This document shows, in pieces, positions 3,998-21,938 of a stretch of DNA of 22,480 nt (positions are counted from its first letter, which is position 1; every line of letters starts with the position of its first letter). The notes under the pieces are model-generated. The model was not told the DNA's origin, searched no databases, and saw nothing but the letters and a program-made list of their open reading frames with translations. This DNA comes from a virus: positions 1-22,480 of IMG/VR virus record IMGVR_UViG_3300046804_005676; one strand, 5' to 3'. A program made the translations under genes and the position numbers.

Positions 3998-4801
3998 TTA
4001 GAAATCTGCGAATAAGTCGTCAATTTTTGAGTCGACTTCCGATTTCTTTGTGTTGAGAGAATACTTTGCTGTTGGTTTGTCCCAAGGCAAATCGCTCTCT
4101 GGAGTTTCTACTGAATCTGCCGATTCTTTGATTTCTTCTTCAGGATTGAGATGCGTCATTAATGCGGCTTTCATCTCATCGTAAGTGAAACGCTTGAATA
4201 GAGTGCTTGGATCGGGCTGATTCTCTAACCAAAGTTTTACTTTGTCAGCGTCTTCTGAAAGAGGCGTGATTTTAGTTCTAACCCTAACAGTTGAAGTGTT
4301 ATACATCAAACCTGTTGTTTCTTTACCCGAGGTTTCAACAGTAATGTCTCTACCTTGAATGGGGTCAGTGTAATCGCCTACGTCCTCATCTTCAACGAGA
4401 CTGAGCAAGTCCATGTAAACCTGTTTGCCAAATTCCCAAAGACGAACGCCCTTGTCTTCTTCGCCTCTTACGATAACGGGAACAAGAACTCTCAATTTTG
4501 GTTCTAGCTTTTTAGCAGTTGCCCAATTCTCCTTTTCGGATGTTTTTCTCAGACTCTGAGCAAATTCAACGATTGGATCTTTTTCACCGAAAGTGGTCGG
4601 TGATACCATCATCTTGTTTCCGATGCCATAGTGGATGAACACTTCCTTAAAAGGATTCTGCCTAGAATAAGCAGATGGCACAATTCTAACCAAATGTTTT
4701 CCCACTCCCGGTTTCCAGATAACTGTTGAGAAATCCTTCTTTTGTCCGCCACGGGGATTTTGTAACATGGCTAGTCTTGACTTTAAACTGTTTAAATCCA
4801 T
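3998..4801 (-). CDS. Single-stranded DNA-binding protein, T4 gp32-like, lacking zinc ligands
   Basis: Cooperative ssDNA-binding protein that coats single strands at forks and during recombination. Of its 267 aa, the basic N-terminus (MDLNSLKSRLAML) matches the gp32 self-interaction segment. The core contains KHLVRIVPS (35-43), SPTTFGEKDPIVEFA (67-81) and VRLWEFGKQVYMDLL (119-133), all typical of the gp32 OB-fold. The C-terminus is acidic and ends SKIDDLFADF (258-267), like the acidic protein-docking tail of gp32. In zinc-binding relatives the 67-81 region reads CP...CPIC; here the cysteines are replaced (S67, D75, V78), so this version probably binds no zinc. It has an ATATTTA box upstream and a strong terminator downstream, consistent with a monocistronic, highly expressed gene. 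Confidence 0.9.
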   Translation of the reverse strand: MDLNSLKSRLAMLQNPRGGQKKDFSTVIWKPGVGKHLVRIVPSAYSRQNPFKEVFIHYGIGNKMMVSPTTFGEKDPIVEFAQSLRKTSEKENWATAKKLEPKLRVLVPVIVRGEEDKGVRLWEFGKQVYMDLLSLVEDEDVGDYTDPIQGRDITVETSGKETTGLMYNTSTVRVRTKITPLSEDADKVKLWLENQPDPSTLFKRFTYDEMKAALMTHLNPEEEIKESADSVETPESDLPWDKPTAKYSLNTKKSEVDSKIDDLFADF

Positions 4802-4817
4802 AACTGTGTTTTTATTT

Positions 4818-4826
4818 TTAAATATA
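4818..4826 (-). promoter_or_regulatory. Promoter-like TATATTTAA box upstream of the gp32-like gene
   Basis: The coding strand reads GTATATTTAAAAA, 16 nt before the ATG at 4801. It shares the ATATTTA core with the five other boxes and lies in a 54-nt gene-free gap. Confidence 0.5.
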
Positions 4827-4855
4827 CGAAACCTTTTTTTACAAAATCAATTTAA

Positions 4856-5278
4856 TTATACAGTGATGATTTTGTGAATCGCTGTATTCAATTTTCTTAA
4901 CTGGGAATCTTGCGTGAGAAGTACGCTGTTGTGATAATCCTTCCAAGGTATTGGAAAGGTTGAGTCCAACACACCGTTATTTAAACTCTTAATCACAATG
5001 TTTAAAGCATTTATGGTATAGAGGGTGTTGGTTTCTTTTTTTCGGTGCAAAAGAATTGTATTCGGTATGATTTTTACCTGTTTGTCTTCTTGTTCTATAT
5101 TATAGGTGCACAAGTAGTCTTCTGATTCGGGGGAAGAAAGCACAAATATTTTATTATAGAGAATTTTGTATTCTCTATTTATCTCCGCCAATCTGGACTC
5201 TAAGTTGTCTTTAGGGGAAAATGTGCAAAAGAGTTTATTCATATAATCTGCGTCTAATAGATCTAGTTCGTCGTACAT
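4856..5278 (-). CDS. Conserved-looking hypothetical protein (140 aa) in the replication cluster
   Basis: I do not recognise this protein. It is 140 aa, soluble, with an acidic N-terminus (MYDELDLLDADYMNKLF), a central beta-rich stretch (about 43-85), and a C-terminal part with regular hydrophobic spacing (TINALNIVIKSLNNG, then a segment ending LNTAIHKIITV). It sits between the Pol A-type gene and the gp32-like gene and has its own ATATTTAT box. In T4 the genes next to 32 are 59 (helicase loader) and 33 (late transcription co-activator). Position makes a replication or late-transcription accessory role possible, but no motif supports a specific assignment. Confidence 0.7.
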   Translation of the reverse strand: MYDELDLLDADYMNKLFCTFSPKDNLESRLAEINREYKILYNKIFVLSSPESEDYLCTYNIEQEDKQVKIIPNTILLHRKKETNTLYTINALNIVIKSLNNGVLDSTFPIPWKDYHNSVLLTQDSQLRKLNTAIHKIITV

Positions 5279-5294
5279 AACTTTCTTGTCTTTA

Positions 5295-5302
5295 ATAAAT
5301 AT
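5295..5302 (-). promoter_or_regulatory. Promoter-like ATATTTAT box upstream of the 140-aa gene
   Basis: The coding strand reads AGATATTTATTAA, 16 nt before the ATG at 5278, in the 34-nt gap behind the polymerase gene. Same core and spacing as the box before gp32. Confidence 0.5.
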
Positions 5303-5312
5303 CTAAATAGTG

Positions 5313-6608
5313 TTATAATTGGTAATTTTTTCCGTATTTGTGTTTAACTTTAAAGCCTCCTGATTGTAATAAATCTCGAATTGATTCTAGTGTGCCTTTA
5401 CCGTCTGATAAACTGAAATCAAAAAGAAACGAATCGTAAGTTATTAAAACTATTTGAGTTTTTTTATCTTTTAAAAAGGCTTTTAATTGCTGGATTTTTT
5501 CTACATTTGTTGCTGTCTCCATGTTCTGGATGATGTAGTTGAAAACTCTCAGCTTATTCATCCCCTCTGTCTTCTTGATTGTCCTCCCTGTTGGTAAGAC
5601 CGCCGCTCCAAACGTATTGTATTTTTTCCATTCTTTCTCTATATAATTATCTAGTTTAGAGAAAAATTCTATATCTTTGTATTGATCTTCGATTCCTCCG
5701 TAAAGTTGTCTAAACGAAATCTCTTTTGACTTTTTATATTCCTCCTCAGTCAGTTCATCTTTGTCAAAGTATTTCTTACCGAGATACTCATGCATTGATC
5801 CATCAGGGCATTCATAATCAACTAATTTTGCTATGAGTCGTAGATGATAAGCATCAAAATCAAATTCCACAAACACATCGTTTTTTGGTAAAAAAGATTC
5901 TCTAGATCCATCGTCTTTGGGTATTGCTAAAAAATTTATGCCATTGAAAGCATTAGTAGGCCTGCCAGTTGTATTATATAAATTATAGTATCCATACATT
6001 ATGCTATTTTTTATTGAATAGCCAGGATTGGGTATTTTATAATACGATTCGAATTTAGATTTGTCAACTAATATGCCTTGCTCTTCTACATATTTGTATG
6101 AATCGGCTATTAAATCTTCCATATCTGAATTGGTTTCTAATCCCATTAGATAACTAACTTTATTATAGAAACACTCACATTTTTCGTAATGTTTGCTTAT
6201 TGGAATTAAACGATTCACATCTGAGTTTTGCGATAATCTATTATTAAAATCGTTATGCAATAATGTATCGCACTCTGTATGATCAAACTTTCCAAACTGA
6301 TTTATGGCAACAATTTGCAAGTCGACAGCGTTTGATATATCTAAAAAATATGAGTGATATTTCTTGTCAAACAGATATACTTTCTTGTGAAGCTTTAAAA
6401 AATCTATCACTTTATTTATATCTAGACTCATAGATTCAGAGTGATCTATGGAGAATATGTAACCTTTACTAAAATTATTGTAATAAATGAGGGAAGCTTT
6501 TGTAAGCTTTGGATGATAACTATCATTATGTGATATCACCTGAATGAACCCAGATTCACTTGGGCTCAGTTTGCTTAACTGATCTATGTGTTCTATTATG
6601 AAATACAA
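5313..6608 (-). CDS. Small family-A DNA polymerase with degenerate exonuclease region
   Basis: Template-directed DNA polymerase of the Pol I family, 431 aa. The polymerase core is recognisable: TTGRPTN (213-219, the Pol I TGR motif); motif A DFDAYHLRL with D250 equivalent to E. coli D705; O-helix motif B with K295, F299 and Y303 equivalent to K758, F762 and Y766; the NYIIQ segment (357-361); and motif C TYDSFLF with D392 equivalent to D882. Unusual changes are H255 for E710 (steric-gate position), Y391 for H881 and S393 for E883. Residues 20-105 look like a remnant 3'-5' exonuclease fold, but the DxE and later acidic ligands are absent (VISHND, KKYHSYF). Spacing between motifs is shorter than in Pol I, so fingers and thumb are reduced. 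The start is TTG (6606-6608): an in-frame stop lies three codons upstream, and the next ATG would cut into the fold. A matching 5' nuclease is encoded separately downstream. Confidence 0.82.
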   Translation of the reverse strand: MYFIIEHIDQLSKLSPSESGFIQVISHNDSYHPKLTKASLIYYNNFSKGYIFSIDHSESMSLDINKVIDFLKLHKKVYLFDKKYHSYFLDISNAVDLQIVAINQFGKFDHTECDTLLHNDFNNRLSQNSDVNRLIPISKHYEKCECFYNKVSYLMGLETNSDMEDLIADSYKYVEEQGILVDKSKFESYYKIPNPGYSIKNSIMYGYYNLYNTTGRPTNAFNGINFLAIPKDDGSRESFLPKNDVFVEFDFDAYHLRLIAKLVDYECPDGSMHEYLGKKYFDKDELTEEEYKKSKEISFRQLYGGIEDQYKDIEFFSKLDNYIEKEWKKYNTFGAAVLPTGRTIKKTEGMNKLRVFNYIIQNMETATNVEKIQQLKAFLKDKKTQIVLITYDSFLFDFSLSDGKGTLESIRDLLQSGGFKVKHKYGKNYQL

Positions 6609-14081: not shown

Positions 14082-17000
14082 TTAGCTTTTTCTAACATTT
14101 GCGGCAATTTTTGAAGACTCTGCGTACGTTGATGGATCATTATTAACAACTTTAGATAGAGATTTACCCGTGATTGGATCGATGTTATTAACGACTGTCA
14201 CGTTTGTTGTGCCCTGTCCTCTTTCTACGTCTTTTTTTGTTGAAACTAAAGCTGTATTTACAGTTTTTTGAGTTTCAGCGGCTTGATTCATGGGCTTTAT
14301 TTCTTCTGCTGCTTCTTTTATAGCGGGTAATGCTTGCATACCGCCACCTGCACTACCACCGGATTCTCCGCCACCGCCACCGCCGACTTGAGATAAATAA
14401 CCAAATAGCATTGTAGCAGCTATTCCTCCTAAAATTGGACCTATTAATCCCCCTGCTCCGGTAACTTTTGCTATTGCATTCACTATACTAAATCCTGTGT
14501 TTACTTTTTCTTTGGCGCCTGACGCTGCGCTGGTTGCGAGATTTTGTTTAGATAGACCAAGTCTTGTTTGATCTACTGTTTTACCAACTTGATTTGTAGC
14601 TAAACTAATTTTTTCCGTAGTAGATTCTTGTTGAGCCAACATTTTTTTCATTTTCTTCTTTGAAACTCTTTGTCCATCTACTATGTTTCCTTTTTTTTCC
14701 GTTGCGAGATTGGCTTTATCCGCTACTCCCTCTTGTTTTACAGCCATATTTTTCGCTCTCTGAGTTAACAGACTACCTTTTTCCATTAACCACATTGCGG
14801 CTTTAGTCGCCTTGATTCCGACATACACGCTAGCCAATACTTTAGCTGTTGTAACTATATTATTTATTACGGATTCGATATTTTTTGTATCTGATAACCA
14901 GTTAGCCACTTTTTCTATAAGAGGCATAAATTGCTGCATTGCTTTACCGATCGCTTCATTTATTCTCTCCATTGTAGCCGCCATCTTTTCATTAACAGAT
15001 GCGCTTTCAGCTGATCTTGTGGCTTCAGCTCCCATTATCTTAGCAATCTCGTCGTGCTTCATTCCTCTTTTAACAAGAGCATTGTATTGTTCAACTTCTG
15101 ATTGATGTGCTAATTCGCCAAGTACTTTAGCTTTTTCTTGTTGACGATACATTTCATCCATCTCTTGACGACTCATACCTAACGCATCAGCGTAAGCTTG
15201 TCTTTGAATTACATTCATCTTCTCGTACTGCGCTTGACTTCCGATTTGTTTGTTGAGCTCTTTCATCAAACCACCTGTATCTCCAGCAAGCGCCAGTTCT
15301 CTGGCTTTCGATAGATTTATATCTTTACCTGTTAGCAATTGAGCTTCCATCTCTTTTGTCATGCTCGACTCAAAATCTAGCAACGAATCACCAATCTTAT
15401 CTATTTTGTCAAGGCTTAATCCCATTTTTTTTGCCTCAACAACTGCCGAGGCTAATTCTTTAACGTTGCCTTTAAAATTCATATAGACTGTAGAAGAAAC
15501 TTTAGATATTTCGTCCAATATCTGTTTCTCCGACATTGCCATCTTTAATTCGTATGCTCTTGCTTTTCCCGTTCCTACAACAGTGGCAAACGTATCTCTC
15601 ATCGTTTTACCGTTTTTAGCTGCCGTTAATTGCAACTCTGTCATACTTTCCGCAGAAGCTCCGAATCTTCTCATTATTAGAGTAGATTGCGTGGCAAATT
15701 CTTCAGTAGATGGAGCCATCATACCTAACGCCTCATTCAATTTACCTTGCGTTTCCAACATCTCTTTAGCTGTTAGAGCTAATTGTCCGTTCTTATTCGC
15801 TATCTGTTCATATGTGCCTCTTAGTTTTTCTGCTTGGAATACAGTCATTCCTAAAGCCTTTGCAGTTTCGAAAGATCTTGATTGGTATTCTGTTGCTTTT
15901 TTTACAACAAAAGTTAAAAGTCCAACAATTGATGTAATTTGACCAACTGGATCTTTCAACATATCCCCAAAGGTCTTCATTATAGATCCAACGCCAGCTA
16001 ATGCCACTTGCCATTTGTTTGCGCCTTCTGCAGCTTTTTTCTGCATCGCATCAATGGCTTCGTTAATCTTCATGAATTTACCAACTCCGTAGTGATCTAG
16101 AATTCCACCAACCACTTGCATACTCTTTCCAAAAACTCCCATTTTCTCTATTATAGAAGATTGACGTTTTTCTTCTTCTTTAAGAGCTTGTATAGTCTTA
16201 TCGTGTTGTTTTAATGTCTGACTTACGGATATATATTCCGCTTGCTTTAAAGATACTCCCTTCTGTAATTTTATAACCTGAGCAGATGCGATAGCGCTTG
16301 CTTTTTCTAAATCTTTAATATATTTTTCGTGTGCAGCTGCTTGAGCACCCGTTAAATCTCTACCCTCTATTATGGCTTCATTTAGAGCTTTTTGTGCTAA
16401 ACTTTCTGATTGTATAGCTTTAGATATTTCCTCTTGCTTTTTTAGAGCCTCTTGAGCATCTGGACCCATATCTTCCTCAAGCTGTTTAAGCCTTGCTTGA
16501 GCGAATACTCTTTGTTGAGCGGTTTTATGCATTAATTTCTCCAAATCAGCAAGCATTTCTCCATCTTCCACGGATGCGGCAATAGAGGATTCAATTCCTT
16601 CTCTTGTTTGAATAGCTTTATCTAATAGTTTTATGTTCTCTTTTTGAACTATTGAACTTTGACCCTCATAATCCATTGCCATTTTTGCTGCCTCTTGTAT
16701 TCCTCTAGCAGCTTGAAGCGTTGCTTCCCATGATTTTGGATCTGGATCTCCTGGGCCTGAGACCGTTGATTTATCTTTTGGCGGAGTTGGTCCTTTAGGA
16801 GGTGGAGGCGGAGGCGCAGCACCCGCTGCTTTAGCCACTGTTTCTGGTTTCTCTTTACGCTCTTTCGGCGGCTTAGCTGATTTCGTTATTGACTCAGAAG
16901 ATTCTTTTTTACTTGTCTTTTTAGATTTCTCTTCTGTGATTTTCTTGTGTATAGATAGTGTATCCTCTTGTGATTTTTTTAGTGCTTCTTGTTGTTCTCT

Positions 17001-20000
17001 TTCTTTTATTATCTGCTTGACTCTTGCTGAGGAAACATTTAGGAACTCTTCATTAACCACGTTTCCTTTTTCCATTTGATTATTCACCTCTTTTTGAGCC
17101 TGTGCTGTTTTTGATATAGTTTCAGGTGCAGGCACCATTTTAGGCGCAGCATTTTTCATTACTACGTCTTTCTCTACTTTAGCAACAGGTTTTTTCTTTT
17201 CTGTTGGTTTTTTAACTGTTGGAGATGCTGGAGAAGCGGGAACTATTGATTGCGTTACTTTTGGAACAGGAGCGATTTTTGGAGTAATAGATTCTGTTTT
17301 TTTAGTTTCTTTACTCTGTGTTGATTTTTTAGTAACACTCTCTGTCTTTTTTTCTATAGAAGATTGCTTATTTATAGTATCTTCTACTTTTTTGTATGTA
17401 TCTTTTTGTTTGTTTATGCTCGATTCAAACTTCTTATCTAGTGAAGATTGTTTATTTACATTCTCTTCAGCTTTTTTATGAGCATCTCTTTGTTTGTTTG
17501 TACTTGATTCAATTTTCTTATCTACAGAAGACTGTTTGTTTATGTTGTCTTCTACTTTTTTGTATGTATCTTTTTGTTTGTTTATGCTCGATTCAAACTT
17601 CTTATCTAGTGAAGATTGTTTATTTACACTCGATTCTAATTTCTTTTCTACTGTCTCCTTTTTATTTATACCAGTTTCTACTTTTTTATTTATAGAAGAC
17701 TCTTTATTCGTACTACTTTCTAATTTTTTATTTATAGATTCTTTATTACTTATGTTTGATTCTATTTTTTTATCTATAGATTTCTGATTTTCTATCGCGA
17801 CTATTTGTTTTTTTGAAGTACTAGACTCACTCGCTTTTTTAGTAGTCTCAGCTTTATTAGTAACACTTTTTTCAGCTTTTTTAACAACAGTTTTTTCTGA
17901 TTTTTTTGATGTAGATACATCAGAAGCTTTTTTAGCCTCTAAAGAAGTTTGTTTTATTATAGATAGCTCTTCTTTCTTAGATTCGTTTAATTCTTTCTGA
18001 GAAGAAATTTTTGCTTTCTGTTGAGCTATATACGAAGAAGACATATTCACAAATTGAGTTTCAGTCTGAATAGATTTTTCTATTTCAGAATTTAACTCTT
18101 TCTGCGCAATTGATGTTTTCGATACATTCTCTTCAACTATCTTAGATGCCTCAGTCTTTACCTCAGGAGCTTTTGATTTTGCTTCTGGGGCAGGAGTCTT
18201 GGATTTTTTAGGTAGTTGTACTTCTTTTGGTTCTACTTTTTTAGCAATCGATTCCGGTTTAGCGGGTTTTTCTACTGCTTTTGGTAAGGCTTTTTCTACA
18301 ACAGATTTTTCTTGTTTAGGTTGAGAAGCTTTAGGTTTTTCTGATTCTTTGGCGACTGTTTTCTCTGATATAGACAGACCTTCTTTTTTAGCTTTATTAA
18401 TACTTTCTTGACTGTTTATTGTCTTTTTAGATGTATCAAAAGATTCAAATGTCTTGTCTTCTATTTTCTTAGATATATCGAATTCCTCAGAAAGACCCTC
18501 AATAATTAAGTTTATGAACTCAGATTTTTTCCTTACCGAATTAACGATTTTAGATATTTGAGATCCAATCTTTTCAATTATACTAGACTCTTTTTCTGTT
18601 GATTTAGTATCAAATGCGGTCTTAGTAGAAGCCATTTTTTTCACCGGTGCAGGTGGCGGCACAAGTGCCGTTGGTTTCTTAATTGGCTGCTGTGGAACAG
18701 CAACTTTCTTAATTGGAGGTGGCGGCACAAGTGCCGTTGGTTTCTTAATTGGCTGCTGTGGAACAGCAACTTTCTTAATTGGAGGTGGTAGAGACGGTAA
18801 TGTTTTCGCAACGCTCTTAGACTCTTTAACAGTCGTAGTTTTCGATGTCTTCTCTGATTTAGAAGACAGTAATTCTTTTTTCTTTGTGTCTAATTCTATT
18901 CGTTTTATCACCGGCTCTTCTTTCTTAAATAGTTGCTCTTTCTTTTTAGTATCAGCTTCTATTCTTTTAAACACGTTTTCTTCTTTCTTAAAGAATTCAA
19001 TTTTCTTTTTTAAATGATCTTCTGATCTTTTTAAGATTGAATCTTGAGTGTTTAATACTAGAGTCTCCTCTTTTATTACGGACTGTTTTTCTTGAGTTTG
19101 TTTTGTAGATTTTTCTTCTGTTTCTTTTTTTACAGGAGGTAACGCTACAGCTTTTTTTATAGACTGAGGTGGTGGAGGAATGGTTGGAGCCACTTTTTTA
19201 ACAACAGGAGGTAACGCTGATTCTGATTTTGGTGCTAAAGTTTTTGAAACAGGACTGGTCGCTGGTTTTTTAGAAGACAGCGGCGACATCTTTTGTACTT
19301 GAGGAGCGGAAGCTTTTATTTTAGCGCTCTCAGTTAATATCTGTTTTACCAGATTCAGCTCTTTTGTTCTAGAATTAACTATCTTTGTTAATTGATTTGA
19401 ACTAGCCTGAAGTGATTGCGTAATCTTGTCAGAAACGTTTTTAATGTCTCTATAGAGTTTTAATTCCTGCTTTAGAGACTCAGTATTTTTTTCTGATTTT
19501 TTTGGTTGAGGATTTTCTTGTTCAGGCTGAGTTTCTACTGCTTTTTCCTCTTTGGCTTTTACCGGTTTTTCTTCTGACTTTCCGGATTTTATAGCATTTA
19601 ATCTTTTTTGATACCTCTCTCTGGCATTGGTTATTAGCTCTTGTACATTGAGCGATTCTTCTTCTTTTTTTGAGAGCTTTTCACTTATGCTTAACTCCTC
19701 TTTTTTCGCTTTGGTGTTTTTCTCAGCTTTATCTGACTTACTGGAATCGGAAGAATTCTTTACTTTTTTATTTATTGTCTCCTCTACTTCCGATATCTTT
19801 TTTGTAGTTTTTACATCGTCTTCTAACTTTTTAGATCTTTTCGATGTTGAGTCTAATAAGTTTTTGTTGGTTGTAGCAGTAGCTGAAGAAGTTTCTTTAA
19901 TTAATTTGCCCTCTTCTGATTGTTTAGTGGTAGAAACTAGTATGTCAGATATGCTATCTTTCTTCTTTTCAGTTAATTTAATAACAGACTCTTCGTCTAT

Positions 20001-20237
20001 TTTTACTTTATCCTGAAGAGCTTTGGTGAGATTTTGCGCAGAATTTAATTTCTCAGTATTTTCGTACTGCTGTTGAGTACTTTTTGAAATGTTTTCTGAA
20101 ATTGACGAATTTTCTGCCTTTAACGAAACCAATTCGTTTTCCAATTTCAGTAAATCTTTTAGTAGTTTACTAGCGCTGGTTTCTTTTTCTTCCTCAGGAT
20201 TTTCTTCGCCCTTGTTTTTAGCTGGTTTCTTCGGCAT
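14082..20237 (-). CDS. Tail tape measure protein with long repetitive N-terminal half
   Basis: A 2051-aa protein that would set tail length and be ejected ahead of the DNA. The first about 1130 residues are Lys/Glu/Ser/Thr-rich low-complexity sequence with predicted coiled coils and Pro-rich stretches (about 310-370, 483-535). They include a 22-residue tandem duplication (about 483-529) and about eleven 14-residue repeats (about 816-966). A six-proline linker (about 1139-1155) leads to a conventional tape-measure region: long helices and hydrophobic segments at about 1428-1444, 1794-1817 and 1928-1951, with a Gly-rich stretch just after the last. The hydrophobic segments probably insert in or near the membrane at infection. 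It follows the tail-assembly genes by 29 nt, has its own ATATTTAT box, and precedes baseplate genes, the standard tape-measure position. The family call rests on size, position and composition, not on a signature motif. Confidence 0.88.
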   Translation of the reverse strand: MPKKPAKNKGEENPEEEKETSASKLLKDLLKLENELVSLKAENSSISENISKSTQQQYENTEKLNSAQNLTKALQDKVKIDEESVIKLTEKKKDSISDILVSTTKQSEEGKLIKETSSATATTNKNLLDSTSKRSKKLEDDVKTTKKISEVEETINKKVKNSSDSSKSDKAEKNTKAKKEELSISEKLSKKEEESLNVQELITNARERYQKRLNAIKSGKSEEKPVKAKEEKAVETQPEQENPQPKKSEKNTESLKQELKLYRDIKNVSDKITQSLQASSNQLTKIVNSRTKELNLVKQILTESAKIKASAPQVQKMSPLSSKKPATSPVSKTLAPKSESALPPVVKKVAPTIPPPPQSIKKAVALPPVKKETEEKSTKQTQEKQSVIKEETLVLNTQDSILKRSEDHLKKKIEFFKKEENVFKRIEADTKKKEQLFKKEEPVIKRIELDTKKKELLSSKSEKTSKTTTVKESKSVAKTLPSLPPPIKKVAVPQQPIKKPTALVPPPPIKKVAVPQQPIKKPTALVPPPAPVKKMASTKTAFDTKSTEKESSIIEKIGSQISKIVNSVRKKSEFINLIIEGLSEEFDISKKIEDKTFESFDTSKKTINSQESINKAKKEGLSISEKTVAKESEKPKASQPKQEKSVVEKALPKAVEKPAKPESIAKKVEPKEVQLPKKSKTPAPEAKSKAPEVKTEASKIVEENVSKTSIAQKELNSEIEKSIQTETQFVNMSSSYIAQQKAKISSQKELNESKKEELSIIKQTSLEAKKASDVSTSKKSEKTVVKKAEKSVTNKAETTKKASESSTSKKQIVAIENQKSIDKKIESNISNKESINKKLESSTNKESSINKKVETGINKKETVEKKLESSVNKQSSLDKKFESSINKQKDTYKKVEDNINKQSSVDKKIESSTNKQRDAHKKAEENVNKQSSLDKKFESSINKQKDTYKKVEDTINKQSSIEKKTESVTKKSTQSKETKKTESITPKIAPVPKVTQSIVPASPASPTVKKPTEKKKPVAKVEKDVVMKNAAPKMVPAPETISKTAQAQKEVNNQMEKGNVVNEEFLNVSSARVKQIIKEREQQEALKKSQEDTLSIHKKITEEKSKKTSKKESSESITKSAKPPKERKEKPETVAKAAGAAPPPPPPKGPTPPKDKSTVSGPGDPDPKSWEATLQAARGIQEAAKMAMDYEGQSSIVQKENIKLLDKAIQTREGIESSIAASVEDGEMLADLEKLMHKTAQQRVFAQARLKQLEEDMGPDAQEALKKQEEISKAIQSESLAQKALNEAIIEGRDLTGAQAAAHEKYIKDLEKASAIASAQVIKLQKGVSLKQAEYISVSQTLKQHDKTIQALKEEEKRQSSIIEKMGVFGKSMQVVGGILDHYGVGKFMKINEAIDAMQKKAAEGANKWQVALAGVGSIMKTFGDMLKDPVGQITSIVGLLTFVVKKATEYQSRSFETAKALGMTVFQAEKLRGTYEQIANKNGQLALTAKEMLETQGKLNEALGMMAPSTEEFATQSTLIMRRFGASAESMTELQLTAAKNGKTMRDTFATVVGTGKARAYELKMAMSEKQILDEISKVSSTVYMNFKGNVKELASAVVEAKKMGLSLDKIDKIGDSLLDFESSMTKEMEAQLLTGKDINLSKARELALAGDTGGLMKELNKQIGSQAQYEKMNVIQRQAYADALGMSRQEMDEMYRQQEKAKVLGELAHQSEVEQYNALVKRGMKHDEIAKIMGAEATRSAESASVNEKMAATMERINEAIGKAMQQFMPLIEKVANWLSDTKNIESVINNIVTTAKVLASVYVGIKATKAAMWLMEKGSLLTQRAKNMAVKQEGVADKANLATEKKGNIVDGQRVSKKKMKKMLAQQESTTEKISLATNQVGKTVDQTRLGLSKQNLATSAASGAKEKVNTGFSIVNAIAKVTGAGGLIGPILGGIAATMLFGYLSQVGGGGGGESGGSAGGGMQALPAIKEAAEEIKPMNQAAETQKTVNTALVSTKKDVERGQGTTNVTVVNNIDPITGKSLSKVVNNDPSTYAESSKIAANVRKS
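17340..17790 (-). repeat. Array of about eleven 14-residue (42-bp) repeats inside the tape measure gene
   Basis: The encoded protein repeats a unit such as SLDKKFESSINKQK about eleven times (residues about 816-966), with KK at positions 4-5, E at 7 and N-K at 11-12 nearly constant. At DNA level an 81-bp stretch is identical at 17380-17460 and 17548-17628, 168 bp (four units) apart. The intervening units are diverged. Fourteen residues equal two heptads, so each unit may form four turns of a charged amphipathic helix. Confidence 0.9.
18651..18788 (-). repeat. 66-bp tandem duplication (22 aa, Pro-rich) in the tape measure gene
   Basis: Two copies of a 66-bp unit (18651-18716 and 18717-18782) are identical, followed by a few bases of a third. 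It encodes PPPPIKKVAVPQQPIKKP plus TALV twice. Perfect identity without synonymous drift implies a recent duplication or gene conversion. Confidence 0.93.
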
Positions 20238-20266: not shown

Positions 20267-20527
20267 CTATTTTTTAGTTGACTTTGGCGATGATTTAATC
20301 TTACTCACGAAAGACGGCATATTCACTTTTTGTAAATCTTTAGGTGCATTAGATATTATCTTTTGCGGATTGGTGGATGCGGTTATGATATCTCTACCAG
20401 AAGCTCTCTCGTACTCTTCTCGCTCTTTGTCATAGAAAGTTTTAATCTCGTTAAATGTATACCTTCTAAGCCAAATCGGCATATTGTAGACAGTTTCCCA
20501 ATCGTATCCACCTTTACCGTGAAACAC
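20267..20527 (-). CDS. C-terminal, +1-frame part of a tail assembly protein (probable frameshift product)
   Basis: The nominal ORF starts at GTG (20525-20527) and gives 86 aa, beginning FHGKGGYDWETVYNMPIWLR and ending in a Lys/Ser-rich tail. The frame stays open upstream of that GTG back to about 20578 and encodes ALHS-like sequence without any ATG, GTG or TTG start: HRSLVFKEIHEIV runs directly into the protein. The pattern (EIHEIVFHGKGG, then VYNMPIWLRRYTF) looks like one continuous conserved domain. The simplest reading is that it is made as an extension of the upstream 249-aa protein by a +1 (or -2) shift near 20577-20586, giving about 348 aa. This is the layout of lambda G/GT-type tail chaperones, and it lies between tail tube and tape measure where such genes sit. 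Independent initiation at GTG is the alternative. Confidence 0.72.
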   Translation of the reverse strand: MFHGKGGYDWETVYNMPIWLRRYTFNEIKTFYDKEREEYERASGRDIITASTNPQKIISNAPKDLQKVNMPSFVSKIKSSPKSTKK

Positions 20528-20588
20528 AATTTCGTGAATCTCTTTAAATACTAAAGATCTGTGATTAGAGTGCTGGATAAAAAAATGA
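20528..20588 (-). other. Candidate programmed frameshift site and overlap region
   Basis: Near the end of the 249-aa gene the coding strand reads TCA TTT TTT TAT CCA, with seven Ts (20579-20585) followed by A. The zero frame stops 12 nt later at TAA. Skipping one T gives TTT TTT ATC CAG and an open +1 frame that joins the downstream ORF. tRNA-Phe on UUU can re-pair perfectly after a one-base slide. A weak AT-rich hairpin (CTTTA/TAAAG) lies about 20 nt downstream. Polymerase slippage or a real/assembly indel in the T-run would look the same in a single sequence. Confidence 0.6.
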
Positions 20589-21314
20589 AAACCCGATAGG
20601 AATTTCTACACCCTCCTCGATGTATCCGTCAGATCCAACAAACGTAAATGTCATATCAGGTCCTGGTGATACTTTTTTCATGTAATCTCTTAAAGCCCTA
20701 GAATCAGTCGATAACATATACTCGTCAACAAACATTCTAATAGTCTTCTGACTAGTATCTCCATTTACAGATAAAATGCTAGCTTTTAATTTAGATGTGA
20801 TATTTGAAGATATATTTAGTTTCTTGTTTGCTTTAATATCCTCTTCAATTCTTTTCTCATCTGCGTGGGTTATAAGTTTAAATGTTATCTCGTCTCCTGA
20901 TGAAGGTAGTGTGAAACTAAATTCGTTTTTATTATCGAAAAGAGAATAGTCTACCGCTCTCTCTTTGATTTCTGTTAAATCGATATTATAATCTTCTTCT
21001 TCTCCTGTGCTTGGATTTTCATACTTAATCTGATAGTCTTTACCATAACCCAAGATTCTGGCGGCTACTAGAATGGCATCTTTATCTCCAATGATTAGAT
21101 CATTAAAGTTTATTTTTGACACAATCAGAGACTGAAGGAGCTTATCAAACACAATGCCCTGTTTCATGTAATTAGCGTTAGTTAAGATGTCTTCGTGTTT
21201 AGCTGTCATATAACGCATTTCAATTTTCCCCTCAGATAGAGGATTTTCTTTTGGATAAACCAATCCTTTGGAAGGTAGTTCAATTGTTTCCGTAGGAATC
21301 TTTAATTCTGCCAT
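20565..21314 (-). CDS. Baseplate hub assembly / tail chaperone, T4 gp26-like
   Basis: A 249-aa protein resembling the T4 baseplate gp26 family. Recognisable segments are LPSKGLVYP (13-21), MRYMTAKHEDIL (33-44), LLQSLIVSKI (59-68) and GDKDAILVAARILGYG (76-91), followed by a beta-rich middle and a helical C-terminal half ending IPIGFSFFYPAL. Relatives are thought to help hub or tail assembly and are not abundant in the virion. It lies between tail tube and tape measure. Its last codons overlap the beginning of a +1-frame ORF through a T7 run, so it is probably the zero-frame product of a two-product chaperone gene. It starts at ATG and has an ATATTTAT box 17 nt upstream. Confidence 0.8.
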   Translation of the reverse strand: MAELKIPTETIELPSKGLVYPKENPLSEGKIEMRYMTAKHEDILTNANYMKQGIVFDKLLQSLIVSKINFNDLIIGDKDAILVAARILGYGKDYQIKYENPSTGEEEDYNIDLTEIKERAVDYSLFDNKNEFSFTLPSSGDEITFKLITHADEKRIEEDIKANKKLNISSNITSKLKASILSVNGDTSQKTIRMFVDEYMLSTDSRALRDYMKKVSPGPDMTFTFVGSDGYIEEGVEIPIGFSFFYPAL

Positions 21315-21452: not shown

Positions 21453-21938
21453 TTAGTAGTTAAGGATGCAATAGTCCATACCAAGAGTCATTGTGATCTC
21501 AACTGGATCGCCTGAACCCCAATCGTATGTTCCAAATCCGGCTTCTGTAATGAATGCACCTTTGATGATCCACTCAGTAACGATATCACCGACAGGTCCT
21601 AAGAGAGACATACTAACGTCTTTCTTGTAGAAGTCTGAATAACCGTCACGACCAGTAACAGATTCGTGATGTAATCTCACCCACTCCATAACAGTCTGCT
21701 GACCAGAAGGAGAAATTGGGTTGTGAAGAGTTACTGATATATTTTTCCATTCAGCTTTACCCTTAAGCTTCCTGTATACGTTAATGTGATCAAGTTTGAT
21801 CTCATTCATTGTGATGCCTGGAGCATCTGCTTTCTTGATTAAATAAGATGGGATACCGTCTACGAACATTACAAATCGGTTGGCGACTGTGGGTTCAAAC
21901 GCCGTAAACATTATCTCATTGGGATCCAATACTGCCAT
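21453..21938 (-). CDS. Tail tube protein, T4 gp19-like
   Basis: A 161-aa subunit of the inner tail tube, which stacks as hexameric rings inside the sheath. The length matches T4 gp19 (163 aa). Typical features are the EPTVANRFVMFVDGIPSYLI strand pair (15-34), KADAPGITMNEI (36-47), the YRKLKGKAEW turn (55-64) and the C-terminal beta-strand region ending TMTLGMDYCILNY. It lies after the sheath gene, with one small gene between. The ATATTTAT box upstream and GC-rich terminator downstream make it a monocistronic unit, fitting a protein needed in hundreds of copies. Confidence 0.93.
   Translation of the reverse strand: MAVLDPNEIMFTAFEPTVANRFVMFVDGIPSYLIKKADAPGITMNEIKLDHINVYRKLKGKAEWKNISVTLHNPISPSGQQTVMEWVRLHHESVTGRDGYSDFYKKDVSMSLLGPVGDIVTEWIIKGAFITEAGFGTYDWGSGDPVEITMTLGMDYCILNY

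Follow-up and report, generated by a model that had tools for sequence, protein, structure and literature searches.

A conserved T-run points to programmed +1 frameshifting in a gp26-family gene for a probable tail assembly chaperone of environmental phages

Introduction

Does the gene in front of the tape measure gene of this phage make one protein or two? The question is raised by a locus on the minus strand of the window (the whole 22,480-nucleotide stretch of viral DNA analyzed here), where an open reading frame of 249 aa (ORF1, 20565..21314) ends in a run of seven Ts, and a second frame is open across its end. On the basis of comparison with relatives, we infer that some ribosomes very probably shift by +1 at the T7 run, so that a tail chaperone would be made in two lengths, short and long.

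Organization of the locus

ORF1 ends in GGG TTT TCA TTT TTT TAT CCA GCA CTC TAA, with the stop codon at 20567..20565. The putative slip site TTT TTT TAT (20577..20585, minus strand; T7 at 20585..20579), corresponding to codons F244, F245 and Y246, sits six codons ahead of this stop and is preceded by TCA (20586..20588, minus strand), a codon whose third base is almost never T among relatives. From 20605 onward the +1 frame stays open until a stop at 20269..20267. Its earliest possible start is a GTG (20525..20527, minus strand), from which an 86-aa ORF would run (20527..20267); we judge this not to be the real start, as it lies inside a predicted helix and is not conserved in relatives. A +1 shift at T7 would join 245 residues of ORF1 to a 103-aa extension (20267..20578 with its stop, minus strand), giving a product of 348 aa. 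The earlier note had reported a 249-aa gene ending in TTT TTT TAT with a +1 frame lacking a usable start, and both are confirmed on the minus strand; its estimate of 249-aa and about 348-aa products from a slip at T7 agrees with the computed length.

The gene order tail tube, ORF1, extension, tape measure is found in the window and in annotated relatives. Adjoining ORF1 upstream is a gp19-like tail tube gene (21453..21938, minus strand; phrog_4542 tail tube, E 1.5e-20; PF06841, E 1.7e-4), and 29 bases past the extension begins the tape measure gene (14082..20237, minus strand; 2051 aa), the C-terminal part of which is the region matching the annotated tape measure protein of Flavobacterium phage immuto (BLASTP, E 2e-33). 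The tape measure protein is twice as long as that of immuto (1006 aa), and its N-terminal half contains long Lys/Glu/Ser-rich repeats. The remaining window carries T4-like replication genes (DnaB-type helicase, 5'-3' exonuclease, RecA family and gp32). A 431-aa ORF at 5313-6608 (minus strand) looks by eye like the catalytic region of family A DNA polymerases (DFDAYHLRLIAKLV, LPTGR, TYDSFLFD); it has no Pfam match, and such a likeness is unusual next to T4-like genes.

Identity of the short form

ORF1 matches PF12322 (T4_baseplate, the T4 gp26 family) with 38.9 bits, above the cut-off of 24.5 (E 9.9e-10), and phrog_150 with E 3.4e-16, which bears out the gp26-family assignment made in the earlier note. 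Its AF2 model has a pLDDT of 92, and the best of 375 PDB chains compared with it are 3klu (Z 5.6), 2ob9 (Z 4.9) and 3fgx (Z 4.9), all with weak scores (Foldseek E about 1). The 2ob9 chain is the HK97 tail assembly chaperone and 3klu is YqbN; 3klu and 3fgx we take to be of the XkdN type of prophage tail chaperones. Despite the weak scores, the agreement of the three top structural neighbors of the model on tail chaperones is suggestive. In our assessment, ORF1 and its extension, lying directly upstream of the tape measure gene, are very likely a G/GT-type (TAC-N/TAC-NC) tail assembly chaperone, as had been proposed from the arrangement of the locus.

Conservation of the open frame and the slip site

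Relatives were collected in a first scan (80 loci), in a profile scan that added 80 among at least 600 matching contigs, and from bacterial assemblies, which added ten loci, several of them labeled Flavobacteriales. The frame relation and the site are retained across about 200 loci, with 27-84% protein identity and including complete cultured phages, although counts over these relatives are not phylogenetically independent. When an alternative frame is scored as open if it reaches from at least 20 nt upstream to at least 150 nt downstream of the stop, all 116 non-redundant untruncated relatives qualify in the +1 frame, versus nine of 288 (3%) other gene ends on the same contigs, as expected for the programmed frameshift that the earlier note had postulated.

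In nearly all relatives, TTT TTT followed by TGG, TAT or TAC stands a few codons ahead of the stop with the +1 frame open. The site TTT TTT T(GG/AT/AC) is kept in 98 of 119 non-redundant genes (TTT TTT TGG in 84, TTT TTT TAT/TAC in 14), and the others are mostly close variants (CTT TTT TGG in six, TTT CTT TGG/TAC in six, and a few others). The occurrence of TTT TTT at this position far exceeds what each gene's own Phe codon usage would give. The same arrangement is present in the cultured phages immuto (with TTT CTT TGG), Microcystis phage Mel-JY01, Bacillus phage SP-15, Streptococcus phage GXN1 and Listeria phage LIS04, and in none of these five records is a frameshift annotated. Alignment of related loci, which had been suggested as a check, thus finds both the out-of-frame overlap and the T-run conserved, and the two ORFs lie in a single frame in none of the lineage relatives examined.

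Direction of slippage

The base in front of the run is informative about direction. At 100 in-frame T7 sites it is C in 73, G in 17, A in nine and T in one, whereas in front of other Phe codons of the same genes it is A in 558 cases, T in 284, G in 148 and C in 83, so that T accounts for a quarter and C for under one tenth. The canonical -1 signal X_XXY_YYZ is correspondingly missing: T precedes the run in one of the 100 T7 sites, and the -1 frame is open by the same measure in one locus. As the base before the run is almost never T, slippage by -1 would be blocked; a T there would create T_TTT_TTT, a -1 site leading into a closed frame, and so -1 appears to be selected against. Together, these patterns are strong evidence from sequence comparison that the site has been selected for tRNA slippage, with selection against -1.

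Re-pairing of the P-site tRNA one base forward is possible in all 122 sites examined, and the target frame is +1, consistent with the +1 (or -2) shift proposed in the earlier note. A shift of -2, in which tRNA-Phe moves back two bases on the T-run, would enter the same frame and add one extra Phe (...GFSFFFIQHSNHR). Phage Mu is known for a -2 frameshift, and TTT TTT T permits re-pairing two bases back in 119 of the 122 sites. However, three sites can re-pair only in +1, namely TTC_TTT_TGG (L246), TTC_TTT_CGT (L085, Streptococcus phage GXN1) and AAC_TTT_CTA (L087), and the TTT CTT TGG/TAC variants resemble the +1 site CTT T of release factor 2 (RF2). The broken-run variants TTT CTT TGG, TTC TTT TGG and AAC TTT CTA retain the +1 frame and re-pair in +1. 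We therefore regard -2 as unlikely and +1 as the likely direction, as judged from codon-anticodon pairing across the relatives.

In the +1 reading, we propose that ORF1 would itself be the short tail assembly chaperone (TAC-N, lambda gpG-like). While P-site tRNA-Phe occupies the second TTT, the codon after it (TAT in the window, mostly TGG among relatives) would be slow to fill, and a minority of ribosomes would move one base forward onto the overlapping TTT and continue in the +1 frame. The predicted junction peptide is ...GFSFFIQHSNHR, without the extra Phe, and the slip product would be the 348-aa long form (TAC-NC, gpGT-like). By analogy with lambda, the short form may coat the tape measure protein, while the helical extension of the long form may recruit tail tube subunits. 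In the window lineage, we found neither a conserved SD-like stimulator next to the site nor downstream RNA structure (z -0.33).

An alternative to slippage on the ribosome is slippage in transcription, in which RNA polymerase would omit one base in T7 so that part of the mRNA carries an in-frame fusion. A seven-base homopolymer is a typical polymerase slip site, and the protein product would be identical. However, the frame relation is kept where the run is broken by C (TTT CTT TGG, TTC TTT TGG, AAC TTT CTA and GAA TTC TTT CGT), which disfavors transcriptional slippage, and codon-anticodon pairing accounts for the avoidance of T before the run, which polymerase slippage does not. This makes a transcriptional origin very improbable.

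The extension domain

In the extension, relatives share the motif EYR..LF..IHEIVFHGKGGYDW.TVYNMPIWLR, and the domain is under purifying selection, with a median dN/dS of about 0.19. The short form and the extension were modeled separately, because a combined MAFFT alignment (fusion, short forms and extensions) misplaced the extensions, and alignment rows unacceptable to the predictor were omitted. The extension model (105 aa) has three predicted helices, spanning residues 6-61 and beginning just after the shift site, with a mean pLDDT of at least 90 over residues 11-60. A fold search with the extension found no solved relative, only weak matches to short uncharacterized phage proteins. DUF6760 (PF20546) matches ten of 47 extension domains (best E 7e-4; the window member at 0.095 only), with no match in three genomes searched nor in controls. 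These matches may hint that other contractile systems have related chaperone tails.

A few relatives depart from the usual arrangement. In L011 (about 4697-5400) and likewise in L012, an ORF that reads as a GIY-YIG homing endonuclease directly follows the ORF1 stop, the slip codons are changed to TTC TTC, and the extension domain stands apart after the endonuclease ORF, carrying the peptide VPLGLNLF, which is like that preceding the usual site. In L032 (3204-4229), the second domain has its own ATG 8 nt past the stop of the first gene, with no overlap, possibly a natural loss of the frameshift. These arrangements indicate that the two domains can be unlinked.

This raises the question of whether the two domains are generally separate genes, the second with its own (coupled) initiation. 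The unlinked second domains of L032 and of L011/L012 would fit this explanation, and T4 itself uses separate genes. However, no conserved start or SD accompanies the extension (38 of 117 relatives lack any start codon before +45, and ATG with an SD-like motif occurs in only nine of 117), whereas the overlap and the T-run are conserved nearly everywhere else. At the GTG of the window, where a start exactly at that codon had been considered as an outcome that would speak against a frameshift, no conserved start exists; the GTG is residue 20 of the extension model, within predicted helix 1 (residues 6-22), so that initiation there would remove most of that helix. Separate initiation is, in our view, very improbable. 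Finally, although T7 runs are error-prone, an assembly or sequencing indel in the homopolymer is already refuted by the relatives, as the same frame relation recurs throughout about 200 contigs as well as in complete genomes of cultured phages.

On comparative sequence evidence, we thus regard the frameshift as conserved and programmed and not the result of an indel. All comparative tests at hand support a real and functional feature, with conservation of the site, the frame, the domain and the gene order.

Relation to cyanophage, T4 and jumbo phage genes

For comparison, we assembled a group of cyanophage, KVP40-like and CC2-like gp26-gp51 loci (L107-L109, L111, L112-L191 and L272-L273). Here all 78 of 78 non-redundant gp26 genes end in T_TTT_TTC: the residue before the site varies (S, D, A, G, N), yet the codon for it has T as its last base in every case, and TTC invariably serves as the second Phe codon even though TTT is used more often. 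The product named "gp51" by the cyanophage depositors is encoded by the -1 frame, which is open. Positions -15 to -10 carry an SD-like GGAGGG, and the 60 nt downstream show more structure than codon-shuffled controls (mean z -2.0). In the deposited genomes of Aeromonas phage Asswx_1 (L111, 2905-3070) and S-RIM8 (L108, 3181-3369), the -1 extension either lacks an annotation or has one that starts at an internal ATG.

This group shares with the window lineage a homologous short form (hhalign E 2.4e-6), a homologous extension (E 1.3e-5) and the position of the site at two Phe codons just ahead of the stop. The two differ in that the former appears to shift -1 at T_TTT_TTC with an SD-like motif and RNA structure, while the latter would shift +1 (or -2) without either stimulator.

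The same profiles lead to T4. In hhalign comparisons, the gp51 C-terminus pairs with the cyanophage extension (E 8e-15), gp26 with the cyanophage short form (E 9.6e-21), and the N-terminal part of gp51 with gp26 (E 1e-23); thus in T4 a pair of paralogous genes supplies the short and the long form. The only in-frame fusion of the two domains that we saw is gene 51, which is a separate paralogue, and the end of T4 gene 26 has neither an open overlapping frame nor a slippery site. Direct profile comparisons of the window-lineage extension with the gp51 C-terminus, and of window ORF1 with gp26/gp51, were not significant, and the link is made through the cyanophages, for ORF1 also through PF12322. 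Profile comparison gave no support for a relationship between T4 gp28 and the short form.

In the tree, a fully supported branch parts the +1 genes together with the jumbo phages XacN1 and RAS14 from the -1 cyanophage group and T4 gp26/gp51; the rows are very divergent, and finer branching is not reliable. In XacN1 and RAS14 (L089, 4240-4500; L090, 4230-4490) the gp26-like gene ends in T_TTT_TTT with the -1 frame open; a separate small ORF is given in the deposited annotation, and no obvious tape measure gene is among the genes that follow.

We consider it reasonably likely that, within the T4 superfamily, the direction of frameshifting has been reversed between homologous chaperone genes: -1 with stimulators in the cyanophage, KVP40-like and CC2-like group, and +1 at (non-T)TTT_TTT_T, with no such stimulators, in a large lineage to which Flavobacterium phages belong, where the base enabling -1 is selected against, with XacN1 and RAS14 forming a -1 branch on the +1 side. 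Speculatively, the switch may be tied to hosts whose ribosomes rely little on SD sequences.

Comparison with known systems

A 2016 review described the G-T frameshift as conserved "except T4" (PMC5009743). According to papers that cite Vladimirov, Gautam and Davidson (2022, Virology 566:9-15), gp26 and gp51 are T4-like chaperones, produced by frameshifting in some groups and from separate genes in T4 (PMC10885494, PMC12846349); some T4-like phages have a short gene and a fused longer gene in place of frameshifting (PMC10885494), and poly-T -1 signals in T4-like TAC-N genes are cited (PMC12846349). The statement in the earlier note that T4 is not known for two tail chaperones made by frameshifting is therefore out of date, as far as these citing papers convey the 2022 work, and its link between T4 hub proteins and G/GT chaperones is well supported, whereas the newness it implied is not. 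Both the chaperone relation of gp26/gp51 and the frameshift in some groups are, by the same citing papers, already known and are re-derived here.

The window gene resembles T4-like gp26/gp51, as those papers present them, in its PF12322 short form, in the TAC-N/TAC-NC logic and in the poly-T site of some groups. It differs in that the T4-like poly-T sites are cited as -1 (PMC12846349) and T4 has two genes, while the window lineage probably shifts +1 (or -2) and avoids the T needed for -1. With lambda gpG/gpGT it shares the place before the tape measure gene and a short and an extended chaperone by frameshift, a likeness of gene place and frameshift arrangement; lambda shifts -1, the window lineage probably +1. 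The +1 direction in tail genes is shared with the chaperone of haloarchaeal myovirus HSTV-2 ("very likely +1") and the tail shaft gene of Listeria phage PSA (PMC5009743), but PSA slips on a proline codon before the stop, unlike the chaperone site of the window. The CTT TGA site of RF2 (prfB) is similar in its P-site +1 slip onto TTT, and some relatives have CTT TGG. RF2-type +1 signals combine an SD-like stimulator just upstream with a stop codon in the A site; in the window lineage the A site is a sense codon (TGG/TAY), no SD lies three bases upstream, and the site is not autoregulatory.

We found no description of the T7 +1 site of this lineage in the literature, the 2022 study being represented by papers citing it. 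As far as we found, the probable +1 shift at (non-T)TTT_TTT_T in a large environmental lineage including Flavobacterium phages, opposite in direction to a homologous gene, is new.

The analysis revises how a gene very common in environmental phages (at least 600 matching contigs) should be annotated, as the 86-aa ORF of the window and similar fragments would be the C-terminal part of the long chaperone and not genes. The probable switch of direction between homologous genes is the most interesting part: it would offer a natural comparison of +1 and -1, in which the features that set direction are easily testable by a few base changes in a reporter.
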